Source of the DNA: an uncultured Roseibium sp.
Lineage (GTDB): Bacteria > Pseudomonadota > Alphaproteobacteria > Rhizobiales > Stappiaceae
Direction of reading: 5' to 3'
DNA: 64,000 bases
NCBI RefSeq assembly: GCF_947494555.1
Contig: NZ_CANLVF010000003.1
Location: 806,001-870,000, forward strand
Shown: piece after piece, positions 5,951-64,000 of the stretch
Position numbering within the stretch: position 1 is the first letter of the stretch
How the letters are laid out: each line of letters opens with the position of its first letter
Translations under genes and position numbers: made by a program
The notes under the pieces: model-generated
Database searches by the model: none
Seen by the model: the letters and a program-made list of their open reading frames with translations, nothing else
What the model was told of the DNA's origin: nothing

Positions 5951-7852
5951 TCATCGCACCGCTACGGGTCCTGGAGCAGCATCAGGCTCAGCTGCGGGTT
6001 CGCTCCTGAATGTAAAACTATGCATGCCAGCATTTGTTTCGTGTGAGATGTCTACTCTTATTTCTTTTGGGCCGGAGATTTTTAGGACAGCGTTGAACTC
6101 TCTCTCTCCTCTTCTCTCAAATTCTTCGAGAGTTATCAGCTTGGCGATTCCAGATTGGGCCATAGTGAAATGAGCTTCGATCTGAGCTTTATCCCAGTTA
6201 GCTTTTCCGACCACAATCCCTTGGAGTTCATGAATATAGTCGCCGACATAAGCACGAAGCACTCTTTCTGTGTCTACTGCTGGTTTGGCAGGCAATGCAG
6301 CTATGCACTGGAATAGTTCACCATATCTATCTTCCAAGTTGTCATCTATAGCTCCACTTGCAAGCAACGCGACCTCGTCCATAACAGCTACTTTCTTTGC
6401 GCTGTCGGTGAGATCGTATCTTTCTCCGGAGTATGAGGGCAGATAATGCTCAAGCGCACCACCCCCTAGAAGAAAGATGTTTTTTGTCCTTAGCGCAGCC
6501 CTTATTTGACTCAGCCGACCTTCGATACTGGCGACAACTGGCTCTGTCAAAAGTGCTACAATTGCGTCGCGATCAGCGGCCATTTCGATAAGAACAGCTA
6601 CGCGCTGACGCTTCAGTTTCTTGTTATCTTCTGTGATAGACCGAAAGTAATTTTGAAGCGTCTCTATAACACCGACAGCATTATCAGCACCTTCGATAGT
6701 TCTGACTGCGTCCGTTAATTCGCGGTCAAGTGCGCCACAATAGGCAGCAAAATCAGCCCCAAGACCGAGGCTTGCAAGAAATTCCGCTATGCTTCCATCT
6801 TCGCGAATACACCGTCGAAGACTTCCTAAAAATAGACTATCAAGGTCGAACAGAAAGTAGGCGTTTTTCCCGTAGTGGCGACATAGTTCGACATATTTAG
6901 TCACTTCTTCACAACCTCCAACGTCAATAAGGCAGCTTCCCGCTGCGGTGATGGAGGTATTTCGGCGTTCCTGTATCGCTTCGATTATTTGGGCGTCAAA
7001 TACTCCTTCCACGAAAATTGGATTGTCAGAAAAGAATAGTTGTTTGTGATGAACGTTGAGTCGCGGGACAAGCGATGCGAAACGGGCACGTTCCGCTTCC
7101 GCTAATGCGCCAATATATTTTGGAGGACTGTGGTCCGTAGAAAAGCAGACAATGGTCTGCATATCGTCTACGCTTCGGAGATCCAATATAAATGGCGAAT
7201 GTGTTATTAGGATTATACCCTTGCGGCTCGTACCGGGTTCATGAGTACCTGCAACCTTTCGAACTTCTTGGACAAAAAAAGACTGGAACTGCGGGTGCAA
7301 GTTTAGTTCAGGCTCATCAACAATCAGAAACTGGTGTTCGTCATTATGCAAATGAGTGAGAAGGACCAAGAGTTCCCGAATGCCGTGGCATTCATCTCGG
7401 TCCATTCGATAATATGCACCGGTTCGAGCAAGCCGCGCTTTTGGAACGAGATTTCCAGAGTCCCATTCAAGTACGATTTCGCGACCAAAAAGCGAACTCA
7501 GTGTTGCTTCGACAATAACTCTAATGTCGGGTCGTTCTTCGAGTATGATAAACGTATCAATACCTGAGCCTTGACGACCAGCTGTGCGAAAATGTTGGAA
7601 GTGATTTTTTTGGAGTCCAGTTTTTAAGTTGTCTCCGAAGAAGTTAGAAAGACCAGTCACCGACATACGTTCGAGCCGATCTGTACCTAGCATTCGTGCG
7701 TTTGGAAGAACCGCATTTAAGGTCTCGGAAAAACGCGATTTTCCACTACCATTTGGTCCAACGAAAAAGGAGACGTCGCCAAAGCGCTCGATCGTGAATT
7801 GCTGTGTTTCCCACGGAACTGGCAAAGCAAATGTAACCGGTTGTTCGATCAT
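5951..7852 (-). CDS. OLD-like ATPase with TOPRIM nuclease domain
   Basis: A 633-residue protein with an SMC/ABC-type ATPase: Walker A GPNGSGKS (residues 32-39), Walker B FLIVDEPELNLHP (about 175-187) and ILITHSPF with the switch His (about 214-221). A TOPRIM-like part follows: FVEGVFDAQII (about 280) with the conserved Glu and FLFDLDSL (about 333-340) with the D-x-D. This order is that of overcoming-lysogenization-defect (OLD) nucleases and GajA of Gabija, but no UvrD-like helicase is next to it. The last 290 residues are not recognised. ATG 7852 is chosen because GGAG lies 8 bases upstream; the frame also opens at TTG 7870. Convergent with the DUF3800 gene. A role in phage or plasmid defence is inference. 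Confidence 0.85.
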   Translation of the reverse strand: MIEQPVTFALPVPWETQQFTIERFGDVSFFVGPNGSGKSRFSETLNAVLPNARMLGTDRLERMSVTGLSNFFGDNLKTGLQKNHFQHFRTAGRQGSGIDTFIILEERPDIRVIVEATLSSLFGREIVLEWDSGNLVPKARLARTGAYYRMDRDECHGIRELLVLLTHLHNDEHQFLIVDEPELNLHPQFQSFFVQEVRKVAGTHEPGTSRKGIILITHSPFILDLRSVDDMQTIVCFSTDHSPPKYIGALAEAERARFASLVPRLNVHHKQLFFSDNPIFVEGVFDAQIIEAIQERRNTSITAAGSCLIDVGGCEEVTKYVELCRHYGKNAYFLFDLDSLFLGSLRRCIREDGSIAEFLASLGLGADFAAYCGALDRELTDAVRTIEGADNAVGVIETLQNYFRSITEDNKKLKRQRVAVLIEMAADRDAIVALLTEPVVASIEGRLSQIRAALRTKNIFLLGGGALEHYLPSYSGERYDLTDSAKKVAVMDEVALLASGAIDDNLEDRYGELFQCIAALPAKPAVDTERVLRAYVGDYIHELQGIVVGKANWDKAQIEAHFTMAQSGIAKLITLEEFERRGEREFNAVLKISGPKEIRVDISHETNAGMHSFTFRSEPAAEPDAAPGPVAVR

Positions 7853-8217
7853 GCATGCGTCTCCAGACAAACAAATTATAACCTGAAGTAGTATATTTAA
7901 ATTGCAATCAATCCAACAACGTCATGTCCGGTTTGTCCGCGGAGTTGGCACTAGTTTCTGGTGTGGAGAAGGTCGGGAATCCGCTCATTTTACGAATTCG
8001 GTGCATTACACAATTAGTCCCTATGTAAGTGACTTTTTGCCATTTATTCAGTGCTCTGCGTTTAGAGAATCAAGAATCAATTCCCAGGATTGGCGTTTAG
8101 CGCTGCGTCGACGAAATTATTTGCGCTAAGTCCGCGAAAATTTATGCGTACAAAACTCTCCTAACTATTTGACTTTCCAAGAGGGCAAACGAAACATTAA
8201 GCGCTTCCCTACATCCG
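7853..8217. other. A/T-rich gene-free stretch at the end of the insert
   Basis: About 365 bp upstream of the OLD-like gene. It probably holds that gene's promoter (reading on the minus strand). Short frames here have no family features and no credible ribosome-binding sites. Nothing else recognised. Confidence 0.5.
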
Positions 8218-8369
8218 TTGCAGGGTAGCGCATAGTGTTTCGCCGAGCGCATAATATTTTGCGAGACGGCGGGCTGATATTCACCTACTTTCATAAATTA
8301 CAACAACTTAGGCGGAGTGTTTGATTCCGTCTAAGTTGTCAGGGGATGTGTTTCGTCTCGACTCGATAC
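8218..8369 (+). repeat. Dispersed intergenic repeat, copy 2
   Basis: Shares with copy 1 (3450) the left part TTGCAGGG, GCGCATAGTGTTTCGCCG, CATAANATTTTG, followed by ACCTACTTTCATAA and AACTTAGNCGG, in the same orientation. The two copies thus form direct repeats around the A/T-rich three-gene insert. The right half is more diverged than in copies 1 and 3. Confidence 0.75.
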
Positions 8370-8781
8370 AATGCCTCCTGATTTCAGTTTCATTTGAAAA
8401 ACCCGATTCCTGCCATTGCCCAACATTCGCTGTTTGGGTCGCATTACGTTCAAACTCCGACACAACTCGCCGCATTGATCAAATGGTGTCCCAGGTCCGG
8501 GACCAATGCCGACCTGCATTAGCTTTTCGGTCAACGACCACTTTGCGCGCACAAAACGGTCGCACTCTGATCTGAGATTGCACCCTGGAAGCCGACATTC
8601 GTTGTCATCGGAGCAAATCCATGGGATAGGCGGGAAGCAGTCTTTTGCTGCAGTTTGAATGAATGTCCGCGTTGCGGGACCTTCACGACTTTCGGCTTTA
8701 TACGAATGTCGGGCCGCCGCAGAAGACGGCCCCGCGGAACCATCACGATAGGTTCGGTGATTTAAGTGCAGACAAAGCAAA
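8370..8781. other. Gene-free stretch downstream of the oxygenase gene
   Basis: About 410 bp with no convincing gene. A 165-residue minus-strand frame covers it, but it is rich in Pro, Ser and Arg without domain features and is judged spurious. The piece CGAATGTCGGGCC near 8705-8717 resembles, in reverse, the GGCC-rich intergenic elements seen at 45.4, 50.3 and 60.2 kb. Confidence 0.4.
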
Positions 8782-9900
8782 TCATCTTTCTGAAATGAGC
8801 TTCGCTGAACGTTTAAAGGGATTTGCATCCGGCACTGCGAAATCCAGCTTGATCTCGCCCTTGTCGACGGCGTCGGAGATATAGCGGAAAGCGCCGACTG
8901 TCATGCGCATCAGGTGATCACCGGCCTTGATGGGCGGATATTTTTCAGCAGTTTCCGCCGTCTTGAATTTCGGCAGCGGCTCAACGACAGCATCATAATC
9001 AAGGCCGAAGAAAAGGGGCATCGAATACCGTTCCTTGCCGGTGTTCACGACGCGATGCTGGGTGGACTTGTAAAGGCCGCCTGACCAAGTCTCGAAAATA
9101 TCGCCTATGTTGACAATGAAAGTGCCGGGGATTGGCGGCGCTTCCATCCAATAGTCATCTGCGTTGAGTACCTGAAGGCCAGGACCGCCTTGGAGAAGGA
9201 TTGTAAAACACTCAAAGTCCGAATGGGCTTCGATGCCGACGAAGTCCTTGCTCGCCGGAACATCATTTTCCAGATAGCGCAAGAGACGCAGCTGGGATGT
9301 GGGGCAGTTGACGTGTTTCTTCAGCGTTCCAGCTTCAACGCCCAACTCCAGTTCAAGAGCGCCCAGAAGTTTCAGTCCAAGCCCGAAGACCGCGTCGTAG
9401 TATTGCGAGATCGTGTCCTTCCATCCGGGCAAATCGGGCCAGACATTTGGGCCGGTCATGCGCCAACCGGCAAGATAATCCGGATGATCGGCAGGGGCTT
9501 CAAATGACATGTCCCAGGCCTCGTTGTAGTTGATCGTAATTGGAAACGAGCTGCCGTTTTCTTCAAAGGGTACATAGCCCCGATGATTGGTGCTGTAGCC
9601 GCACCAGTATTTCATCTTGTAGCGCCGGGACTGGGTATGGAAGGCGCGGGACGCTGCGAAAGCCTCGTCGATCAGCGCCTGATCGACACCGTGGTTCTTG
9701 ATGTAGAAGAAGCCAGATGTTTTCGCCGCCTTTCCAAGCTCCTTGGCAACTGAGGCCAGAGCCGCCGGATCGCTTTCGTTGAGCCCGGTCAAGTCAATGA
9801 CCGGCAGTGACACGTTTTCAGAACTTAGTGCGATCTGGTCATCGGTTCCATCGGCCGCCATCTCCGGTTTAAGCGTCCTTTGGTCCAAGAGGTCGCGCAT
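8782..9900 (-). CDS. 2-oxoglutarate/Fe(II)-dependent oxygenase, IPNS family
   Basis: Non-haem iron dioxygenase related to isopenicillin N synthase and plant gibberellin-type oxygenases. With ATG 9900 (GGAG seven bases upstream) the product has 372 residues. The N-terminal DIOX_N region contains LPVIDLTGL and GFFYIKNHGV; the double-stranded beta-helix core carries the iron ligands H226-x-D228 (EAHSDFE) and H282 (STQHRVVN), with R291-x-S293 (ERYSMPL) for the 2-oxoglutarate carboxylate. The substrate cannot be read from the sequence. It is divergent from an ABC importer operon 330 bp away, which suggests that it acts on the imported compound or a product of it. Confidence 0.93.
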   Translation of the reverse strand: MRDLLDQRTLKPEMAADGTDDQIALSSENVSLPVIDLTGLNESDPAALASVAKELGKAAKTSGFFYIKNHGVDQALIDEAFAASRAFHTQSRRYKMKYWCGYSTNHRGYVPFEENGSSFPITINYNEAWDMSFEAPADHPDYLAGWRMTGPNVWPDLPGWKDTISQYYDAVFGLGLKLLGALELELGVEAGTLKKHVNCPTSQLRLLRYLENDVPASKDFVGIEAHSDFECFTILLQGGPGLQVLNADDYWMEAPPIPGTFIVNIGDIFETWSGGLYKSTQHRVVNTGKERYSMPLFFGLDYDAVVEPLPKFKTAETAEKYPPIKAGDHLMRMTVGAFRYISDAVDKGEIKLDFAVPDANPFKRSAKLISER

Positions 9901-53370: not shown

Positions 53371-53874
53371 TCAGGCAGGGACGGCACCGGCTGCCACGGG
53401 CGAGGCGTGTTTCACGCCCTTGCTGTCGATCTTGCCACCGGTTTTCAGGTGATGTTCGAGGCTGTCGAGCATGAGCGACACACGCTTCTTCATCACGGGT
53501 TTCATCATCAGGTTCCCCATGATCGCGCCGAGGGGCCCCATGCCCAATTGGATATCCATCTCCACCGTAACATCGGTCGCGTTGCCGCGCGGAGAAAGGC
53601 GTATCACGGACGTGCCACCCTTCATCGGTTTCGGCGCCTCGCTGAGCGACAAGTGGACTGCACGGCCGTTCTCGATCTTGGTGATTGTTTCGACGATCGA
53701 GGTCTTGTCGACGAACTCGCAACGCCGTTTCGCGCCGACGCCCTCGTTGTTGTGGCTCAGCAGCGGCGAGCGCACGACCCAGGGCTGGAAGCGCCAGATG
53801 CCACCCCAGTCGTTGAAGGCCGCCCAGGCATCTTCCGCCGAAGCGTTGATCCGTTTTGTCAGTTCTGCACGCAT
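53371..53874 (-). CDS. SRPBCC (START-like) family protein
   Basis: A 167-residue protein of the polyketide-cyclase/MxaD-like group: MRAELTKRINASAEDAWAAFNDWGGIWRFQPWVVRS begins the hydrophobic-cavity fold; SIVETITKIENGRAVHLSLSEAP and SVIRLSPRGNATDVTVEMDIQL are its strands; the long final helix is VMKKRVSLMLDSLEHHLKT. No signal peptide. Ligand unknown. The divergently placed DsbD operon contains a second, secreted SRPBCC gene. Confidence 0.87.
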   Translation of the reverse strand: MRAELTKRINASAEDAWAAFNDWGGIWRFQPWVVRSPLLSHNNEGVGAKRRCEFVDKTSIVETITKIENGRAVHLSLSEAPKPMKGGTSVIRLSPRGNATDVTVEMDIQLGMGPLGAIMGNLMMKPVMKKRVSLMLDSLEHHLKTGGKIDSKGVKHASPVAAGAVPA

Positions 53875-54065
53875 GGTGGTTCCTTTCGCGTTTCAGGGTT
53901 TTCGATTGAATCTTCTTGGTTCGTGTCCGGAGGACAAAAACTCTGTCCTCGGCGGAATCGAGTGAGAGGTTGGAATGGTCGACATCGCGTGATGATGTCC
54001 GCCACCGCACCGTCTGCAGTTTCGGGCGTCTTGAGTTCGAGTTGAATTGTGGCGTGCTTGGTCAT
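53859..54065 (-). CDS. Possible small protein overlapping the SRPBCC gene start
   Basis: A 68-residue frame starting MTKHATIQLELKTPETADGA from ATG 54065, with AGAGGAC about 10 bases upstream, and ending 16 bases inside the SRPBCC gene, which could couple their translation. The first 25 residues look protein-like, the rest is Arg/Pro-rich. No family recognised; it may be spurious or a truncated gene. Confidence 0.25.
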   Translation of the reverse strand: MTKHATIQLELKTPETADGAVADIITRCRPFQPLTRFRRGQSFCPPDTNQEDSIENPETRKEPPCVQN

Positions 54066-54250
54066 TTCGGGCGCGTCCTCTGGCGCGATTTTGTTCGCTT
54101 GGCATTGTTGAAAGTGATTACCGCCCCTCGCTTTTGCCACTTCTAATTTTGCACCAGTGAGGTGCAAATTTCGAAGGTGATGGACGGAAATCCTTCCACT
54201 AAGAACATGCGGTACGACCCCACTCCCTGACCACCGCAGGAGGAAAGCCG

Positions 54251-56317
54251 ATGCGTCGTCTCATGCTCACTGCCCTCATGGCCGCTTTGCTTCATACGGC
54301 GCCGCAGGCGTCTTCAGCCGAGGAAGGTTGGACAGAACTCGATCTGTCCAAGACGCGGATCGTAGCAGCTCAGACGGCGCTGCCGGCGAACGGGGCGATC
54401 CGGATAGGCGTCGACATTGCGCTTGATGACGGATGGAAGACCTATTGGAGGAGCCCTGGCGACGCCGGCTATCCCGTCACCGTCGACTGGTCCAGATCGC
54501 AAAATGCGGAAGTCGGAGAGATGCAATGGCCCGCACCGTACCGTTTTTCGCTCTTCGATCTCGATACCTTCGGTTATGGTGAGCGGGTGGTCTTTCCCTT
54601 CGATGTGACGGTTCTCGATCCCTCACAGCCGACACATCTAAACGCCACTGTCGATTACCTGCTCTGCAAGGAGGTCTGCGTCCCGCAGGTCGCCCAGGTT
54701 TCTCTGACGCTGGAACCGGGTGTGTCGGTGGCCAGCACCGAAGCTCAGCTTATCGATCTTTACAGTTCACAGGTTCCTGGCAATGGGGCCGGGGCAGGGT
54801 TGGACCTTCGCATGGCTGCAATCGAACCGGGCGGGTCCCGCGTGAGTGTCGAGGTCGCGTCGATCTTTCCGTTCACCTCTCCAGACGTGATCATCGAGGG
54901 GCCGGAAGACGTTATCTTCGGCAGGCCTGAAATCGCGTTTCGCGAGGACGGACTTGTCCTATCGGCGTCCGTGCCAGCCGAGACCTTCGAAGGTGGGTCC
55001 GTGCGCCTATCAGCGGAAGACATCACGATTACGGTCGTTGACGGTGCGCGCGGCCTTGAGACGGGGATAAACAGCAACCCTGCAACGTCCCGCGCTCCGG
55101 TCCCGACGACGGCCTTCCTTGGGCTGCTGGGCATCGCCTTTGTTGGTGGCCTGATCCTGAACCTCATGCCCTGCGTCTTGCCGGTTCTGTCGATCAAGCT
55201 TCTGTCGGTCGTCTCGCATGGCGGGCAAAGCCCGACGCGCGTGCGTCTTTCTTTCTTGGCGTCAGCGTTCGGAATTATCGCCTCCTTCTGGGTGCTGGCC
55301 CTCGGCGCCATTGCGCTCGGCGTGCTTGGGGTCGCGGTGGGATGGGGCATCCAGTTCCAGAACCCGTACTTCCTGGTCTTAATGGCGAGCGTCGTTATGA
55401 TCTTCGCCTACAACCTCTTCGGCATGTTCGAGATATCCTTGCCGCAATGGATGTCCGTCGCCGCACAGATCGGCGACTCAGACAGCCTGCGCGGGCATTT
55501 CCTGACCGGCGTTTTCGCGACGCTCCTGGCCACGCCCTGTTCGGCGCCCTTCGTTGGAACGGCGGTCGGTTTCGCGCTGTCTTCGGGCGCGCCCGAGATC
55601 CTGGCCATCTTCACGGCTCTCGGCTTTGGGCTCGCGGCGCCGTTCCTGCTCGTTTCGATTTTCCCGAAAATGGCGACGTCGATGCCGAAGCCAGGCAAAT
55701 GGATGCTAAAGCTCAAGAAACTTCTGGGTCTGGCACTTGCGGCGACTGCGGTGTGGCTGCTGTTCGTTATCGCCGGCGTCTCAGGGAAGGTCCTCGCCCT
55801 GGTCGTTGCCACAGGGTTGGCGGGCATCGGGGCGGTACTCTGGGCCGGTCGCGGGGACGCAAACGGGTCGGCCTTTGTCGGCACAGCGATCGCAGCGCTC
55901 TCGCTTGCTCTCATGGCAAGTCCTGCCATTTTCTCTGCCGGGGGTGGATTTGCGTCCCAGGCTGCGACGGCAAATTTCGCGAATTTCAGCGTTGCGGAAC
56001 GCGATCGCCTTGTGTCCGCCGGAGATGTCGTGTTCGTGGACGTGACGGCGGACTGGTGCATCACCTGCCAGGTGAACAAGCGCCTCGCTCTCAGCGACGG
56101 GAACGTGCGGGCTGCGCTGGAGGCCGAAGGCATCACGCCGCTCCGGGCGGACTGGACCCAGCGCGACGACGCGATCCTGTCTTACCTGACGAGCCAAGGG
56201 CGTTACGGCATCCCGTTCAATGCCGTCTATGGGCCGGGCGCGCCTGACGGCATAGTGTTGCCGGAACTGCTAACGCCCGGCGCCGTCCTCGACGCGCTGC
56301 AAGAGGCGCGGGGTTAG
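54251..56317 (+). CDS. DsbD/ScsB-like membrane thiol:disulfide reductase
   Basis: A 688-residue protein that should carry electrons from cytoplasmic thioredoxin to periplasmic thiols. Signal peptide (RRLMLTALMAALLHTAPQASSA), a periplasmic immunoglobulin-like region (about 25-280) with the Cys pair LLCKEVCVP, about eight TM helices (about 290-560) with the DsbD Cys residues in NLMPCVLPVLSIK and LLATPCSAPFVGTA, and a C-terminal thioredoxin domain (about 575-688) with DWCITCQVNKRL. The larger N-terminal region makes it closer to ScsB than to E. coli DsbD. GGAGGAAAG precedes ATG. Likely partner: the DsbA-fusion protein encoded 2.1 kb downstream. Confidence 0.93.
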   Translation: MRRLMLTALMAALLHTAPQASSAEEGWTELDLSKTRIVAAQTALPANGAIRIGVDIALDDGWKTYWRSPGDAGYPVTVDWSRSQNAEVGEMQWPAPYRFSLFDLDTFGYGERVVFPFDVTVLDPSQPTHLNATVDYLLCKEVCVPQVAQVSLTLEPGVSVASTEAQLIDLYSSQVPGNGAGAGLDLRMAAIEPGGSRVSVEVASIFPFTSPDVIIEGPEDVIFGRPEIAFREDGLVLSASVPAETFEGGSVRLSAEDITITVVDGARGLETGINSNPATSRAPVPTTAFLGLLGIAFVGGLILNLMPCVLPVLSIKLLSVVSHGGQSPTRVRLSFLASAFGIIASFWVLALGAIALGVLGVAVGWGIQFQNPYFLVLMASVVMIFAYNLFGMFEISLPQWMSVAAQIGDSDSLRGHFLTGVFATLLATPCSAPFVGTAVGFALSSGAPEILAIFTALGFGLAAPFLLVSIFPKMATSMPKPGKWMLKLKKLLGLALAATAVWLLFVIAGVSGKVLALVVATGLAGIGAVLWAGRGDANGSAFVGTAIAALSLALMASPAIFSAGGGFASQAATANFANFSVAERDRLVSAGDVVFVDVTADWCITCQVNKRLALSDGNVRAALEAEGITPLRADWTQRDDAILSYLTSQGRYGIPFNAVYGPGAPDGIVLPELLTPGAVLDALQEARG

Positions 56318-57210
56318 GCCCCCCGGCCCTCGATCAGGTCCAGCTTGTCGGACACTGCGTCGTAGAGGTACTCCCGGAACCGGCGAAGCCGGACGCTGTC
56401 GCGCAGGTCCGGGTGGGTAAGGACCCACAGCGAGGTATGTGGCACGGCGCGGGCGCTGGGAACCCGTCGAAGATCCGGTTCGAGGTCACCCATCATGCAA
56501 GGCAGATAGGCCATTCCGAGTCCCCGTTTTGCGAACGCCATCTGCACGAACACGTCGTCGAAGCTGCCCATTACCGGCATGGGTTCCAGCCCGGCGGAAT
56601 GGACCCATTTCGGATACTCGACCACATCGTCCCAGCCCAACCATTTGGCGTTACGGTTCACGCCACTGAAGACATGCGCATCAATATAGTCGGCTGATGC
56701 ATACGCACAGGACGCCTGAGTCGCGAGGTTACGCCCAACGAGATAGTTGGGGGGCGAGTTGCCTTGTGACGTGAAGCGCATTGCGATGTCGGCCTCGCGC
56801 TTGGAAAGGTCGAGCAGATCCTCGGTCAGTTCCAGGGTCAGGTTGACGAGAGGATTTTGCTTGACGAAGCGCGTGAGGTCGTCGGTCAGCACGCAGACCG
56901 CCATCGGCAGGGGCAGGGTGAAGCGCACGTCCCCCGACAGTTCCGAGTCCCGTCCCGCAACCGACCGCTCAGCGGCGTGCATGGTTTCCTCAATCTTCTG
57001 CGCGGAGACCACGAGCTCTTCCCCGGACGGCGTAATCAGCAGTCCGTCGGGCGTGCGGTCGAAGAGCCGGGTCTTCAGTGCGAATTCCAGCGCATCCATG
57101 CGGCGCGACACTGTCGAATGTGCGACCTTGAGGTTTTCGGAGGCCCCGCGGATCGAACCGGCCCTGGCCACGGCGAGGAAAACCTTCAGGTCATTCCAGT
57201 CAACTGACAT
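56314..57210 (-). CDS. LysR-family transcriptional regulator
   Basis: A 298-residue regulator (start MSVDWNDLKVFLAVARAGS at 57210; the frame reaches back to 57243). HTH region GASENLKVAHSTVSRRMDALEFALKTRLFDRTPDG and an effector domain with DVRFTLPLPMAVCVL. Its end overlaps the dsbD-like stop by four bases (convergent), and it diverges from the secreted SRPBCC gene, which it may control. Confidence 0.93.
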   Translation of the reverse strand: MSVDWNDLKVFLAVARAGSIRGASENLKVAHSTVSRRMDALEFALKTRLFDRTPDGLLITPSGEELVVSAQKIEETMHAAERSVAGRDSELSGDVRFTLPLPMAVCVLTDDLTRFVKQNPLVNLTLELTEDLLDLSKREADIAMRFTSQGNSPPNYLVGRNLATQASCAYASADYIDAHVFSGVNRNAKWLGWDDVVEYPKWVHSAGLEPMPVMGSFDDVFVQMAFAKRGLGMAYLPCMMGDLEPDLRRVPSARAVPHTSLWVLTHPDLRDSVRLRRFREYLYDAVSDKLDLIEGRGA

Positions 57211-57382
57211 GCGTTCGGGGTCTCCTCGTCGTCTGAAGTGCAAAAATGGATGAGTCGTCAGTTACATGGTCCTAGCAATATTGACTGTTCCAATTTTCGT
57301 CCAGTGTGGCGCAAAAAAGGAACGTGCGGTGCGTTTTCAAGTAAGCTAGCACGATGGCGCAGGTATTAACAGGAGGTTTCCC

Positions 57383-58441
57383 ATGCGCCTGATTTCCACT
57401 TTCGAGACGACAGCCGCCGTCATCGCGGTCGTGACAAGCCTGGCCGGCGCTGCGACGGTGACCGCCGCACAGGAGATGCCGCCGCGCGTCGTCGGCGCCG
57501 TGTTGGTCGACGAACTGACACTGGCGCCGATGCAGTTCGAGATCGAAGTCGAATTGGCCGCATCGCCCACGGACGTTTTCGCCTTCGTCTCGGACAGCAT
57601 GAATGTTGGCAAAATCATCGACGGCGTTGCTGGTGTCGAGGTTTCTGGTGACGGCATGATGCGCGACTTGATGTTGGCCGACGGCACGGTGGTGTCGGAA
57701 ACAATCAAGGTGAGCGACGCCGGCCAGATGTCCTTTGCCTATAGCCTGCCCGCCGAGAACCCGATGGGTCTGTCGAACCACCTGGCCGTGATCCAGGTGC
57801 GCGCCGCCGACGAGCGCGGCGGGTCGGTTCTATCCTGGCAGCAGTATTTCGACGGAGAGGCTTCGGCCGACGCGTCGGCGCTCTACCTGGCGGCGGCTCA
57901 GCGGTTGGCAGAGCGGTTCGGCGGTTACATCAGCGGAGAGCACAGCGGCTTCGCCGAGGTGACGCTCTCACATACCCGGACTTTCGACGTCCCCGCCACG
58001 GTGGTCTGGGCGGAAGTTGCCGAGAACTACGCGAATGCGCACGAATGGGCCAGCGTAATCCAATCGATCGAGTTCGAAGATGCCGATGCCGGCGCGATCG
58101 GTGACGTCCGGTCGTGCTTCATCCCGGGTCTCGGGGGCGCCACGCGCGAAGTGATCACGCGATACGACGAAGACAGCTTCACGTATGCCTACACGATCGA
58201 AGAAGGAATGCCGCCCTTCGTGACGTCGAACGAGGCGGTCTGGAGCGTGACGCCGGTCGACGAGGACACCTCGGAAGTCAACGTTACGATCACCTTCTCG
58301 ACCGCGCCGGGCGTGCCGCCGGGGGCCATCGCCTTTGCCAGGTCGAACTTCTTTTTCTTCGCAGGGCTCGGGATCGAGGATCTCAGGTACTTCCTGGAAA
58401 ACGGTGAGCCGCACCCGCGCGAAATCGCGTCACGCTCTTGA
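57383..58441 (+). CDS. Secreted protein with two SRPBCC domains
   Basis: A 352-residue protein with a Sec signal peptide (about residues 1-28, ending TVTAAQ). Two START-like halves follow: about 45-190 (MQFEIEVELAASPTDVFAFVSDSMNVGKII, ending in helix ALYLAAAQRLAERFGGY) and about 195-340 (LSHTRTFDVPATVVWAEVAENYANAHEWASVIQSIEF, ending FFFFAGLGIEDLRYFLEN). Export of such a lipid-binding fold is unusual; it may bind a hydrophobic ligand in the periplasm. AGGAGG precedes ATG. The esterase-DsbA fusion starts 18 bp past its stop. Confidence 0.85.
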   Translation: MRLISTFETTAAVIAVVTSLAGAATVTAAQEMPPRVVGAVLVDELTLAPMQFEIEVELAASPTDVFAFVSDSMNVGKIIDGVAGVEVSGDGMMRDLMLADGTVVSETIKVSDAGQMSFAYSLPAENPMGLSNHLAVIQVRAADERGGSVLSWQQYFDGEASADASALYLAAAQRLAERFGGYISGEHSGFAEVTLSHTRTFDVPATVVWAEVAENYANAHEWASVIQSIEFEDADAGAIGDVRSCFIPGLGGATREVITRYDEDSFTYAYTIEEGMPPFVTSNEAVWSVTPVDEDTSEVNVTITFSTAPGVPPGAIAFARSNFFFFAGLGIEDLRYFLENGEPHPREIASRS

Positions 58442-58458: not shown

Positions 58459-59826
58459 ATGGCATTCCTCAGATCACCACTCACGGCACTCTGCCTTGGC
58501 CTTTGTCTGACCGCCGGGGCCCCGACCGGGGCCCTGGCACAAGCAGAGCCGACGACGCTTTCGGTCGAAGCGGGCGGCAAGGAACTGACTGCGCGAGTCA
58601 TTCGTCGCGCGGCGACCGACAACGCCTCGCTGATCGTCGGATTGCACGGCTACGGAATGAATGAAGGACAGATCGAGACACTCGTGAATGTCGAACCCGC
58701 GTCGAGCAACAGCTTTGTTGCGCTCCGGGGGCCGGTCCCTGTGGAGGGCGGAGGACACGCCTGGTTTCCCGTCGATGACAGCCAAGTTTACGCCTTGAGC
58801 CAGCCTGCCGACTTCACGACCAACGCTGATATTGTCGCGGACGCGATTGCGGCCCTGACTGCGGAACTCAGTGCGGACCCGCGTCAGGTCTACGTCGTCG
58901 GCTTCAGCCAGGGGGCGTCGATGGCGCTCGGACTTGCGCTGACGCACCCCGATCTTGCAGCGGGGTACATCGCGTTCGCTGGTAGCCTTCCGCCTGAAGT
59001 GCGGACTGAAGACTGGACTATCAAAAACGGTGCCCCTGTGCTTATCGGCTATGGCACCCGCGACTCGCGGTTCAGCGCTGAGGAGCTTGACGCCACGATC
59101 GCGGCGCTGTCGGAGGCGGACCTGTCGGTTGAATTGCAGACCTTCGCCGTCCCCCACGTTGTCAGCGGTGCCGGGCGCCGAGCCATCGCGGCCTGGATCG
59201 ACGACCGCATCGCCGGACGACCGGTTGCACAAACCCGTCCGCTGCCGCTTGCGGTGACCGCAGCCCCCGATACCGGCGAAGACCCTCAGGCGATCATCGC
59301 CGAAGCGCTGGCCGCCGCCGAGGCGCGGGGCGGATATTTCGGGAACCCGGACGGCGATCTCGTGATCTACAAATTCTTCGACTTCAACTGCTCGATCTGC
59401 CGGATTGCGCACCGGCAGATGGGTCGTTTCCTTGCGCAAATGCCCGACAATACCCGCGTCGTCGCGGTGGACGTGCCGTTGATCGGGCCAGGTTCACGCG
59501 AGGCGACGGCACACACATTCTCGATCGTGTCCCCTGACGATTACAACCGCGCCTACCACGCGTTGATGGTCGGGCGGGGTCAGTTAAACGGCGTGCGGGC
59601 CTTGCGCGAACTTGAGAAACTCGGAATCTTGCCAAGTCTGACCGACTCTCAGGAAGCCATCGACGCCTACCAGAACGAAATGCGGATAAACACAGCCGCG
59701 ATGCGCGCTCTTGGGATACAAGGAACGCCGGGCTTCTATGTCCGGCTTGCAGATGGTCGCGAAGGGGCCTTTACCGGCTGGGATGCTGCCGCGATCGCCG
59801 CTTTCATAGGTGCCACACTCGAATAA
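58459..59826 (+). CDS. Secreted esterase fused to a DsbA-like thioredoxin domain
   Basis: A 455-residue exported protein. After a signal peptide (AFLRSPLTALCLGLCLTAG, cleavage near ALAQA) comes a phospholipase/carboxylesterase-type alpha/beta hydrolase (about 35-255): LIVGLHGYGMNEGQ, nucleophile GFSQGASMALGL, Asp in YGTRDSRF and His in VPHVVSGAG. A DsbA-like domain follows (about 275-455): VIYKFFDFNCSICRIAHRQM with the CSIC active site, and GIQGTPGFYV with the cis-Pro. Both active sites look intact. The start is ATG 58459 with GGAAAGG nine bases upstream. Lies with a DsbD-like gene, so its thiol domain may be kept reduced by that protein. Confidence 0.9.
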   Translation: MAFLRSPLTALCLGLCLTAGAPTGALAQAEPTTLSVEAGGKELTARVIRRAATDNASLIVGLHGYGMNEGQIETLVNVEPASSNSFVALRGPVPVEGGGHAWFPVDDSQVYALSQPADFTTNADIVADAIAALTAELSADPRQVYVVGFSQGASMALGLALTHPDLAAGYIAFAGSLPPEVRTEDWTIKNGAPVLIGYGTRDSRFSAEELDATIAALSEADLSVELQTFAVPHVVSGAGRRAIAAWIDDRIAGRPVAQTRPLPLAVTAAPDTGEDPQAIIAEALAAAEARGGYFGNPDGDLVIYKFFDFNCSICRIAHRQMGRFLAQMPDNTRVVAVDVPLIGPGSREATAHTFSIVSPDDYNRAYHALMVGRGQLNGVRALRELEKLGILPSLTDSQEAIDAYQNEMRINTAAMRALGIQGTPGFYVRLADGREGAFTGWDAAAIAAFIGATLE

Positions 59827-60422: not shown

Positions 60423-60950
60423 TTATTTTCTTCGTCGTTTCGACAGTTCACGATAAAGTGCTTCCGGGGAGACACCGATTTCCGCGGCAATGTCCTTGGT
60501 CCGTCTTTCAGGAGAAGTGCCGGAATTGACCGCCAGCCAGAAATCGAGGCGATCAGCTACCTTTTTCAAGCTCCGGACTTCCGTGTTTAACCGCGCACGT
60601 TGAACGGAATGAGAAAGACTGGCCGCCCAGTTTTCTGCCCAGCTTCGATTTGATGCAAGGCGGTCCTTGAATGCGTCCGTCTCAAGCTGCGCGACGGTGC
60701 TTCGGCATCGGGCGATCGCATCGCAATGATAGGTTTCAGAATAGACAGAGGCCTCCGCTAAAACAGCGTCCCGGCCTGCACTTTGCAATACGATTTCGTT
60801 CCCCGAAGGGGTGACCCGAACTAGGTCGATTTCACCATCCAGGATCAGAAAAACACTCAACACGTTGTCGCCAGTATGAAAAAGGCAATCGCCCCTCTCA
60901 CACGATCTGCGGACTGCGTCTGAGAAAACCAGTGAAAGCCAATCGGACAT
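60423..60950 (-). CDS. Short Crp/Fnr-family regulator
   Basis: A 175-residue protein starting MSDWLSLVFSDAVRRSCERG at 60950 (frame open to 60962). The cNMP-binding-type beta-roll is FHTGDNVLSVFLILDGEIDLVRVTPSGNEIVLQSAGRDAVLAEASVYSE; after the dimer helix comes a compact HTH (TKDIAAEIGVSPEALYRELSKRR). It is shorter than the usual 220-250 residues because the linker and wing are reduced. No FeS-type Cys cluster, so the signal is not clearly oxygen. Divergent from the His-rich protein and next to copper genes. Confidence 0.85.
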   Translation of the reverse strand: MSDWLSLVFSDAVRRSCERGDCLFHTGDNVLSVFLILDGEIDLVRVTPSGNEIVLQSAGRDAVLAEASVYSETYHCDAIARCRSTVAQLETDAFKDRLASNRSWAENWAASLSHSVQRARLNTEVRSLKKVADRLDFWLAVNSGTSPERRTKDIAAEIGVSPEALYRELSKRRRK

Positions 60951-61018
60951 GATTGCTATCATATGTGCCTATGCGCCTTCGGGGTAGACCTTGGAGACCA
61001 TTACAAGGAGCCAACCTT

Positions 61019-61579
61019 ATGAAAAACCTTCTGATGCTGCCGATTTTCCTGACGCTCACCGCAGGTCAAAGCCTCGCTGAGACGTCAACGCACAGTCACT
61101 CTGCGGCGCATCAACACCAAGCTTCACAGATCGGCGCGCCAAGTGAGCCGGGTCAGGGTGCATTTGCTTCGATCCAGGAAATCGTCGAGCTCTTGCTCAC
61201 AGATCCCGAAACCGAATGGGAACGCGTTGATCTGGAAGCCTTGCGCGGCCATCTGGCCGATATGGACAATGTTACGCTCCGTTCAATCGTTGCCGTGGAA
61301 CCTCTGGCCAACGGGGCTCGCTTCACGGTTACATCCAAGCAAGGCAGCGTGCGCCAATCCATCAAGAACATGGTTCTGGCACACAGCCATGAAATGTCCG
61401 GGACTTTCGGTTGGAACTTGAGCGCGGAAGAGATTCCTGACGGAGCCATTTTGACGGTAACCGGAACAGTCGAAGATGCGCCCAGGATCCAGGGCCTTGG
61501 TTTTATCGGTGTCATGACGCTCGGCATGCATCATCAAAGCCATCATCTGGCAATTGCTCGCGGACATAATCCTCACTGA
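61019..61579 (+). CDS. His-rich periplasmic protein, probably metal-related
   Basis: A 186-residue exported protein with a Sec signal (KNLLMLPIFLTLTAGQSLA) and a His-rich N-terminus after cleavage (STHSHSAAHQHQAS) and C-terminus (LGMHHQSHHLAIARGHNPH). The body (VELLLTDPETEWERVDLEALRGHLADMDNVTL) is not recognised. Clustered His residues suggest metal binding. AAGGAG precedes ATG by 9 bases. It lies between a CRP-like regulator and copper genes, which supports a role in copper handling; an inference. Confidence 0.75.
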   Translation: MKNLLMLPIFLTLTAGQSLAETSTHSHSAAHQHQASQIGAPSEPGQGAFASIQEIVELLLTDPETEWERVDLEALRGHLADMDNVTLRSIVAVEPLANGARFTVTSKQGSVRQSIKNMVLAHSHEMSGTFGWNLSAEEIPDGAILTVTGTVEDAPRIQGLGFIGVMTLGMHHQSHHLAIARGHNPH

Positions 61580-61644
61580 AGCTTGACTGTCTTCAGGCTT
61601 GGCATGGGCGCACTCGCCGAACGTTCCCTGTGCAAGTAACCGGA

Positions 61645-61848
61645 TCAATTTGAAACGAGTGTCGTAGGTTCGTAGCCAGCGTCCCGGATAACACGCAAGA
61701 TGTTATCCGGTTGTCGCAAGCTCGAGATTTCGACGATGCGTTTTTCAAGGTCGCACGCAACGACAGCCGCCGGTTCTGCTGCCAAGACCGCCTTCTCGAT
61801 CGCCATTACACAATGGCTACAGCTCATATCCGGAATGCAGAGTTTCAT
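61645..61848 (-). CDS. copZ: CopZ-like copper chaperone
   Basis: A 67-residue heavy-metal-associated domain: MKLCIPDMSCSHCVMAIEKAV contains the M-x-C-x-x-C copper site (Cys11, Cys14), with the ferredoxin-like fold through VRDAGYEP-type residues (VIRDAGYEP). It shuttles Cu(I) to the exporter. Divergent from copA, with its own CueR-type promoter box, so the two are induced together by copper. Confidence 0.92.
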   Translation of the reverse strand: MKLCIPDMSCSHCVMAIEKAVLAAEPAAVVACDLEKRIVEISSLRQPDNILRVIRDAGYEPTTLVSN

Positions 61849-61881
61849 GATGTACCTCCTGCCTCAAACCTCGAGGGTTAT

Positions 61882-61907
61882 GGAGGTTCTTGCTAGGGGA
61901 AGGTCAA
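61882..61907 (-). promoter_or_regulatory. CueR-type promoter box of copZ
   Basis: Read on the minus strand: TTGACC (-35, 61907-61902) followed by TTCCCCTAGCAAGAACC, a partly symmetric MerR-family site, and a TATA-like ATAACC about 19-20 bp further on. The long spacer is typical of MerR-type promoters. CueR itself is not in the window. Confidence 0.65.
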
Positions 61908-61945
61908 CAGGTAGAACTACTTACAGGTTTTTTCGATAATTTCTG

Positions 61946-61976
61946 TTGACCTTCCAGCGACTGGAAACCCCATGTG
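61946..61976 (+). promoter_or_regulatory. CueR-type promoter box of copA
   Basis: TTGACC (-35) followed by CTTCCAGCGACTGGAAA, with CTTCCAG/CTGGAA arms that match the classic CueR site of copA promoters, and a candidate -10 near 61971. The copA start at 62011 follows closely. Confidence 0.75.
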
Positions 61977-62010
61977 AGGAGCAATCATCAACGTCACATT
62001 GGACCATGAC

Positions 62011-64000
62011 ATGTCCTCGAAACAGAAACTATCCTTGTCCGTTCAGGGGATGTCCTGTGCGTCCTGCGTCGGACGCGTGGAGCGCGGTCTTTCCGAGATT
62101 GAAGGGATCACGGACGTCACAGTGAACCTCGCGACTGAAACCGCACATCTGACCGCGGACACCGCTGAGCAGGCTTTGGACGCGATAACCAAACTCGGAA
62201 AGATGGGATATCCGGCACGAACGGAAACTCTGGTTCTCAACATAGGGTCGATGTCGTGCGCTTCCTGCGTGGGCCGCGTGGAGAATGCTCTGAAGAACGT
62301 GCCGGGCGTTGTCGAGGTGAGTGTCAATCTGGCTTCAGAAACCGCGAGCATCACCTATGCCGAGGGTGCTTCGACGCCTCAGGCGCTAATGGAAGCCTCG
62401 GGCGCTGCCGGATATCCGGCGTCACTTGCTGAAGCAGGAGCAACGCGTGTCCGCACTGAAAGGAAGCAAGAGGAAGCGCAGGATCTCTTTCACAAGATGA
62501 CCGTGGCGGCGGTTTTCGCGTTTCCTGTCTTCATTGTCGAAATGGGCAGCCACGTCATTCCGGGCATGCACCATTGGATCATCGCGACGATTGGGCAGCA
62601 AACGAGTTGGGTGCTGCAATTCCTCTTAACCACCATCGTCTTGGCTGGCCCGGGACGAGGTTTTTACTTGAAGGGGTTCCCGGCGCTGCTCAGGGGCGCT
62701 CCGGATATGAACAGCCTGGTCGCAGTCGGTACCGGCGCGGCATACCTGTATTCCGTCGTTGCAACGTTCCTTCCATCATTGATCCCGGATGCAGTCAGGG
62801 CTGTCTACTTTGAAGCGGCAGCCGTCATCGTGGTCTTGATCCTGCTTGGGCGGTTCCTGGAAGCCCGGGCCAAGGGGAGAACCGGTGCCGCGATTCAAAA
62901 ACTGCTTGGTCTTCAAGCGAAGACGGCGAGAGTACTGCGGGATGGTGAGCAGATTGAGGTTCCCATCGACGCCCTGGCGATAGGTGACACGATCGTCGTG
63001 CGCCCAGGGGAACGTATCGCAGTTGATGGCGATGTGATTGAGGGGTCATCGCATGTCGACGAGAGCATGATTTCCGGCGAGCCTGTTCCAGTTGAAAAGG
63101 CAGTTGGTGCTCAAGTCACTGGAGGCACGGTCAATGGATCGGGCGGCCTGCAATACACGGCGACGAGGGTTGGGGCAGACACGACGCTATCGCAAATCAT
63201 CCGTATGGTGGAGGAAGCTCAGGGTGCAAAACTCCCGATCCAGGGACTGGTCGACAAGATTACCCTTTGGTTTGTTCCGGCTGTGATGATCGTTGCCGCT
63301 CTCACCGTTGTCGCATGGCTGATCTTTGGTCCGGAACCGGCGCTCACCTTTGCGCTTGTTGCGGGCGTTTCGGTTCTGATCATTGCCTGTCCGTGCGCCA
63401 TGGGACTGGCCACACCCACGTCAATCATGGTCGGAACGGGCAGGGCAGCTGAAATGGGTGTCTTGTTCCGGAAAGGCGATGCCCTTCAACAACTGGCGGA
63501 AGTCGGTGTTGTTGCGCTCGACAAAACCGGAACAGTCACCGAAGGCCGGCCGGAACTGACCGATATGGTACTGGCGGACGATTTTGACTGCCAGGATGTG
63601 CTGGAAATGGTTGCTGCCGTTGAGAGCCGGTCGGAACACCCTGTCGCAGAGGCGATCGTTCGCGCGGCGTCCGTTGAAAACAAGAGACGTCTGGATGCTG
63701 AAGACTTTGTGTCGATCACCGGACACGGTGTAAGCGCTCTGGTTTCCGGGAAGAAAGTTCTGGTTGGTGCCGATCGTCTCATGCTCAAGGAAAACGTCGC
63801 GATTGGTCATCTGCGGGATCGGGAAGAGGATCTTGCGAGACGCGGCCGGACAGCACTCTTTGCGGCAATTGACGGCCAGGTTGCGGCTGTGATCGGGGTC
63901 TCCGATCCGGTCAAACCGTCGAGCCGGGATGCCATCGCTGCCCTTCATGCACAGGGGCTCAAGGTGGCAATGATTACCGGTGACAAACGGGAAACAGCCG
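62011..64000 (+). CDS. copA: Copper-translocating P-type ATPase CopA, 5' part
   Basis: P1B-type Cu(I) exporter cut by the right edge; 663 residues visible. Two N-terminal metal-binding domains each carry GMSCASC/SMSCASC (M-x-C-x-x-C at about 14-19 and 81-86). TM helices start near 163. The actuator loop has SGEP (about 355-358), the transmembrane copper motif is CPC (460-462), the phosphorylation site is DKTGT (504-508), and the nucleotide domain has SEHP (about 540-543) and, at the edge, ITGDK. ATG 62011 gives a sensible start; TTG 61999 is possible. Exports Cu(I) delivered by CopZ. Confidence 0.96.

Follow-up and report, generated by a model that had tools for sequence, protein, structure and literature searches.

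The fusion gene and its protein product

The window (by which we mean the whole 64,000-nucleotide stretch of uncultured Roseibium sp. DNA analysed here) carries on its plus strand a gene at 58459..59826, stop codon included, that is one open frame with an ATG start and without an internal stop. Its 455-amino acid product has an apparent Sec signal peptide at residues 1–28 (58459..58542), judged by eye (MAFLRSPLTALCLGLCLTAGAPTGALA-QAE), and this is followed on the same strand by an esterase domain of family PF02230 (residues 29–253; 58543..59217), a linker (residues 254–290; 59218..59328) and a ScsC/DsbA-type thiol domain (residues 291–455; 59329..59826) recognized by the Pfam families DSBA and Thioredoxin_4. 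The esterase assignment is based on Pfam, on PDB profile matches and on the columns of the catalytic triad, whose codons are Ser150 (58906-58908), Asp202 (59062-59064) and His233 (59155-59157). In the thiol domain the corresponding landmarks are C311 (59389-59391), C314 (59398-59400) and Thr423-Pro424 (59725-59730). Pfam places Abhydrolase_2 at residues 47–235 (E 2.9e-18, 67 bits against a cut-off of 23) and DSBA at residues 303–444 (E 6.4e-9, 36.3 bits against a cut-off of 25.6), and both domains are present in all seven aligned fusion members (the seven-member alignments omit L009, which is 99.8% identical to the window's fusion).

An alignment of 36 proteins (A3: 11 esterase-only, 18 thiol-domain-only and seven with both domains) was chosen from 35 single-domain candidates plus the fusions, L006, L020, L037, L051, L052 and L057 having been dropped as over-long, odd or near-duplicate. 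In it every one of the 18 esterase rows has S, D and H in the triad columns, and the two cysteines, the threonine and the proline named above are invariant across 25 of 25 thiol-domain rows. An earlier note, made from the letters of the sequence, had described one frame with a signal peptide, a Ser-Asp-His esterase and a CSIC/Pro thiol domain, and the two Pfam domains and the invariant triad and CXXC columns bear this description out (the signal peptide by eye). The CXXC pair is Cys311-Ser-Ile-Cys314 (CSIC) in the window's fusion and CAIC in L010. It supplies the sole cysteines of the mature protein in all eight known members when the signal peptide is left out; three members carry two extra cysteines inside the signal peptide.

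The esterase domain, which scores above the PF02230 gathering cut-off and has the Ser-Asp-His triad, is a PF02230 serine hydrolase. Its PDB profile matches include 4fhz, 5dwd, SOBER1 and acyl-protein thioesterase 2, and the closest of them are labelled esterase or phospholipase/carboxylesterase. It resembles the PF02230 carboxylesterases and acyl-protein thioesterases 4fhz, 5dwd, 1auo and 5syn in family and in the aligned triad, but differs from these four in having a signal peptide and a fused thiol domain.

Seven PDB entries matched a profile of the thiol domain alone: 3gyk, 7rgv, 6nen, 4xvw, 6mhh, 6eez and 4gxz. The closest solved sequence is 3gyk (E 1.4e-14), labelled '27kDa outer membrane protein', a 175-residue chain that, unlike the esterase-fused window protein, has no hydrolase; the label of 6nen and 6mhh is copper or metal resistance protein, that of 6eez DsbA-like. 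According to one report (PMC8900818), 7rgv, 4gxz and 5id4 (grouped with 4xvw) are ScsC proteins, the ScsC signature includes Thr-cis-Pro, and ScsC is kept reduced by ScsB, which is needed in three species. The fused domain has the thioredoxin fold with CXXC and Thr423-Pro424, and we infer that Pro424 is in the cis state. The domain is ScsC-like rather than a generic DsbA, and we conclude that the fusion is an esterase-ScsC protein. A DsbA oxidase depends on a DsbB that keeps it oxidised; the neighbour here is ScsB-like. Isomerase activity or Cu(I) binding are further traits of ScsC.

With the ScsC proteins of Caulobacter crescentus (7rgv) and Proteus mirabilis (5id4) it shares the DsbA-like thioredoxin fold, CXXC and Thr-cis-Pro; those proteins are paired with an ScsB (PMC8900818), and the fusion has an ScsB-like gene beside it as its probable partner. 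Those two are stand-alone trimers with a long N-terminal helix, whereas the window's domain lacks the long trimerisation helix and has on its N-terminal side only a short helix-like segment (residues 275–290, by eye) behind an esterase. ScsC is a stand-alone soluble protein; here an esterase lies in front in eight of eight members. The N-terminal helical trimerisation domain is also absent from Salmonella ScsC. The linker contains DPQAIIAEALAAAEAR, which on the alignment looks by eye like a shortened vestige of the N-terminal helix seen in the stand-alone relatives. The thiol domain forms a long isolated branch, 2.77 from the midpoint root, which counts against the interpretation favoured below; lacking the trimerisation helix and lying on such a branch, the fused domain may behave unlike the Caulobacter and Proteus ScsC proteins.

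The linker alignment is free of gaps in all seven fusion members compared. Over the 21 pairs of these seven sequences the esterase has a median dN/dS of 0.13 (all pairs usable), the linker one of 0.10 (20 usable) and the thiol domain one of 0.08 (19 usable); the signal peptide, at 0.40 (18 of 21), is the least conserved part. With dS near saturation, these values give no more than a rough indication that the esterase, linker and thiol domain are under purifying selection. An AlphaFold2 model built on seven close relatives was unusable (mean pLDDT 46), and so we draw nothing from it about contact between the domains.

The surrounding gene cassette

The fusion gene lies in a cassette whose order is the same in eight of eight copies: SRPBCC1 (minus strand), a ScsB-like gene (plus), a LysR gene (minus), a double-SRPBCC gene (plus) and the fusion (plus). 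In the window SRPBCC1 (53371..53874, minus strand) encodes 167 amino acids with a Pfam Polyketide_cyc2 match and no visible signal peptide. The ScsB/DsbD-like thiol electron transporter (54251..56317, plus strand, 688 amino acids) has the Pfam domains DsbD_N, DsbD_TM and Thioredoxin_7 and the cysteine pairs C139/C143, C308/C430 and C603/C606, and its six cysteines lie in the same motifs in seven of seven ScsB-like proteins compared. It thus has the N-terminal, membrane and C-terminal thioredoxin-like domains and the three cysteine pairs of the ScsB/DsbD proteins. Its only PDB sequence match, over residues 21–263, is 6c29, labelled 'putative metal resistance protein', which we take to be the N-terminal domain of P. 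mirabilis ScsB. It differs from the known ScsB/DsbD proteins in scoring 119 bits where the NCBIfam DsbD cut-off is 330, which also counts against the favoured interpretation, and in having SRPBCC and LysR genes as its cassette neighbours. The presence of a DsbD/ScsB-like gene in the same cluster had been remarked on earlier; it is found beside the fusion in all eight copies, and no ScsB match was found within 17–18 kb at the two unfused loci described in the next section.

The LysR-type regulator (56314..57243, minus strand; Pfam HTH_1 and LysR_substrate; eight of eight cassettes) is divergent from the double-SRPBCC and fusion pair, which it might regulate. The double-SRPBCC protein (START-like, here SRPBCC2; 57383..58441, plus strand, 352 amino acids) matches Pfam Polyketide_cyc2 in two stretches and has an apparent signal peptide by eye. 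Its stop codon lies 17 bases before the fusion's ATG, and the gap is 17 or 24 bases in the eight cassettes; the two genes may be co-transcribed. It has a single cysteine, Cys245, found at the same place in ten of ten relatives (including those of cassette B, below) and lying in CFIPG, the alignment's longest stretch without variation. That thiol reductases can protect lone cysteines in the envelope is already known, an example being DsbC and AraF (PMC5403849).

The divergent promoter region (57244..57382) contains a candidate operator, GCACC-N4-GTTC, on the minus strand from 57332. The form GCACC-N4/5-GTTC is found at both the ScsB and the LysR/SRPBCC promoters in six of the seven loci tested (L009 omitted); in the window it is present in the LysR/SRPBCC promoter only, the ScsB promoter being without it. 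Thirteen of 20 matches to the motif fall in 2,640 of 148,808 bases, a count to be read with the fact that the motif was picked after inspecting these same promoter regions, and as a shared candidate operator it is a lead only. Upstream of the window's ScsB-like gene there is a palindrome, TTGCACC-AGTGA-GGTGCAA, at about 54149-54167 (limits by eye); at this place other loci carry GCACC-N5-GTTC.

Between SRPBCC1 and the ScsB gene lies a CMD gene with a CxxC motif. Its protein scores above the Pfam CMD cut-off, and its nearest NCBIfam families are the peroxidase-related and AhpD families, whose cut-offs it does not reach. The gene is full length in three of the eight cassettes (L011, L012 and L013), which speaks for the favoured interpretation, and its loss or truncation in the other five counts against it: in L010 the match covers the first 124 residues only, no match was found in the L009, L014 and L015 cassettes, and the window holds a decayed AhpD-like CMD remnant (approximately 53859..54065, minus strand) of which N-terminal residues are recognizable by eye.

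Beyond the cassette, at 60423-64000 of the window, there are a Crp-like gene (cNMP_binding) and a copper-type P-ATPase gene (by eye, 61999 on), which are also present in the near-identical G069. Copper resistance is probably not a general role of the cassette, as a survey by open reading frame starts showed no copper genes beside the other cassettes, that of G069 excepted.

In the Roseobacteraceae copies the cassette is continued by ergothioneine genes. At L010, L011 and L012 egtB and egtD lie directly downstream of the fusion (about 7395-9590 of these loci), egtB being the next gene on the same strand, 28–29 bases after the fusion, and scoring above the NCBIfam cut-off in all three. It is thus intact in three of the four Roseobacteraceae copies, while L013 retains its first 91 residues only. 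The egtD gene that follows it scores above the NCBIfam cut-off in both copies scanned (L010 and L012) and has a tblastn match in L011, but it is intact in L012 only; it is interrupted by a stop in L011, about 22 residues short in L010 and absent from L013. Neither gene was found in the window, L014, L015, L017 and L018. The EgtB proteins of the three cassettes group in a single clade (100/99) to the exclusion of the second EgtB of G845, and egtB therefore travelled with the cassette in these copies. At the egt loci elsewhere in G845, G1133, G000, G069 and G064, nothing within 10–11 kb matched ScsB, the fusion or SRPBCC; a LysR gene, 33–37% identical, is present at two of these five loci. The ergothioneine genes belong to the Roseobacteraceae form of the cassette, yet look dispensable there, and the link to ergothioneine is weakened because two of the three egtD genes are broken or shortened. 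We found no description in the open-licence literature of ergothioneine genes together with DsbA-type proteins in Roseobacter.

Distribution, unfused relatives and origin

A search for the architecture, proposed when the fusion was first noticed, found eight distinct full-length fusion genes in seven genomes, 69–100% identical, in Roseibium and four Roseobacteraceae genera. The fusion is full length in all eight, so the circumstance that would have pointed to an artefact, the two domains occurring as separate genes in all relatives, did not arise, and a frameshift or misassembly is rejected. The total counts L009 (the copy of G069) and L014 (the copy of G064) once each; both genomes belong to the window's genus. 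The window's own genome has a second full-length copy (78% identical) on a different contig. In line with the earlier note, to which no family of this domain order was known, we found no report of an esterase-ScsC architecture, or of ScsB fusions, in the open-licence literature.

The fusion is rare. A scan of 84,980 species genomes, which requires exact short peptide patterns, found six loci, all full length and labelled Roseibium (two), Roseicyclus, Tateyamaria, Roseobacter and Ruegeria (one each). Full-length copies were found in three of 87 genomes of the family, the window's own genome included, one genome having two. In wider samples the only genome with a full-length match was the window's own: one of 397 in the order, one of 385 in the class and one of 200 in the phylum, where 50 other genomes (51 matching in total) had single-domain matches only. 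In a sample of the family of G846 the full-length match was in G846 alone (one of 394), a second genome matching the esterase only. These sampled-genome searches scored about 4–19 candidates per genome, so fusions that are rare or divergent may have escaped notice. The double-SRPBCC protein, used as query, had matches in 2 of 394, 1 of 1 and 1 of 13 genomes sampled. Among 72,556 plasmid records 160 had a tblastn match and none of these covers 80% of the fusion protein; plasmid-borne spread is rejected on this count.

The window's cassette proteins share 69–90% identity with their counterparts in the four Roseobacteraceae copies, while by eye the genes beyond the cassette differ between the two. 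Because of this similarity between differing flanks, and because the fusion is rare in both groups, the distribution suggests that the cassette spread by horizontal transfer.

Two Roseobacteraceae genomes carry a more distant, unfused relative, which we call cassette B (L022 in G1133 and L023 in G846), with SRPBCC, double-SRPBCC and exported esterase genes in the same order as in the fusion cassette. Its esterase is 36–39% identical to that of the fusion, and it differs from the fusion cassette in lacking the thiol domain and ScsB, neither of which was matched within 17–18 kb in G1133 or G846. At L022 the upstream LysR gene is only 29% identical. G846 holds both the fusion cassette and cassette B, and the esterase of its second set (L021) is the sister of the fused esterases in a tree (99/98 for the fused clade, 100/99 with L021) that has long branches and does not include the G1133 esterase. 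The comparison suggests that the thiol domain and the ScsB reductase were gained together. In G1133 the reading frame of the unfused cassette-B esterase (L022:7984-9120) continues into a LysR substrate-binding domain (PF03466), a second and different unusual fusion of this esterase, and in G844 (L024:7332-7682, minus strand) the last 117 of 241 residues of a cassette-B esterase remain, with no double-SRPBCC match beside them.

The fusion gene is itself a mosaic. Against L015 its DNA is 52–74% identical up to about codon 280 and 89–96% identical over the thiol domain, and against L014 the high identity begins near codon 160; both matches extend beyond the stop codon of the fusion. The trees of the two domains disagree in keeping with this mosaicism.

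Possible function of the fusion protein

The earlier reading of the protein as an esterase joined to a DsbA-like oxidoreductase is to be extended in three respects: the thiol domain is ScsC-like and not a generic DsbA, the gene belongs to a LysR cassette, and ergothioneine genes accompany some copies. We lean, with modest confidence, toward an exported esterase-ScsC enzyme that is reduced by ScsB and reduces thiols where its esterase acts, an SRPBCC protein being its likeliest partner and the whole a mobile LysR thiol-protection cassette. On this proposal a PF02230-type serine esterase or thioesterase and a ScsC-like thiol reductase domain would be exported as one enzyme, and the cassette's ScsB-like transporter would move electrons over the inner membrane to hold Cys311-Cys314 reduced. 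Thiols oxidised to mixed disulfides or sulfenic acids would be reduced by the thiol domain in the same compartment as the esterase, the esterase would act on an ester or thioester, and the tether would hold both activities in one place. The likeliest partner would be the neighbouring exported SRPBCC protein, with its hydrophobic-ligand fold and one invariant cysteine, and the cassette would be a LysR-controlled, horizontally mobile thiol-protection unit that has been joined to ergothioneine genes in some Roseobacteraceae.

The fused thiol domain is probably kept reduced by the cassette's ScsB. The main argument for this is that in the loci compared the thiol domain occurs only where ScsB occurs, a co-occurrence that rests on one gain and so counts as a single event. 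The substrates described for ScsB in PMC5403849 and PMC8900818 are the redox proteins ScsC and TlpA. G000 also carries DsbA-type genes, L003 and L004, and the cassette ScsB could serve their products instead of the fusion. Against the choice of partner, the SRPBCC2 cysteine is equally invariant in cassette B, which has no fused thiol domain, and so this cysteine does not need the thiol domain. The fusion and the adjoining ScsB-like gene hint at a coupled repair or detoxification step outside the cell membrane. If the proposal is right, a hydrolase with its own ScsC domain and its own ScsB would have an envelope reducing pathway wired directly to hydrolytic chemistry, and there is a concrete candidate partner, one cysteine of one exported protein, with a possible tie to the ergothioneine genes.

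The earlier interpretation stands only in part: the architecture is real and conserved, and an ScsB-like gene is present in every cassette (eight of eight). This gene and the tight tether with its conserved linker speak for redox control of the esterase, but a disulfide within the esterase, or between it and the thiol domain, is excluded if the signal peptide is removed, because only the CXXC cysteines remain in eight of eight members. Steric control by docking, or through a mixed disulfide with another protein, is possible. We nevertheless think it unlikely that the thiol domain is a sensor that toggles the esterase in either of these ways according to redox state, since the ScsC-like signature would suggest catalysis over sensing. 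It is similarly doubtful that the protein is a two-step enzyme whose esterase hydrolyses an S-acyl thioester, carried by an exported protein or by a small thiol, and whose thiol domain handles the thiol so freed. SOBER1 and acyl-protein thioesterase 2 among the profile matches, the neighbouring SRPBCC2 with its single invariant cysteine and the egtB gene downstream in Roseobacteraceae would fit such an enzyme; the closest PDB matches carry esterase or phospholipase/carboxylesterase labels, however, the egtD genes are mostly decayed, and we found no S-acylated exported proteins of these bacteria in the open-licence literature. A fuller version is very unlikely to be right as a whole: envelope cysteine repair in two steps, in which the hydrolase frees an exported thiol (the SRPBCC cysteine in the first instance) of its acyl adducts and the ScsB-fed ScsC domain then reduces it, in a cassette that arose coupled to ergothioneine synthesis as a LysR-controlled unit moving between Roseobacteraceae and Roseibium.

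The favoured reading, a tethered reductase that acts where the esterase acts, must also be weighed against a fusion of convenience, in which the domains act independently and are joined only for shared expression or export. That the unfused esterase relatives retain the same SRPBCC neighbour, and that recombination has affected the 3' part of the gene independently of its 5' part, would agree with independent domains. We regard this as improbable, given that the fusion has been retained in eight of eight genes and that constraint on its linker is about equal to that on the domains it joins.
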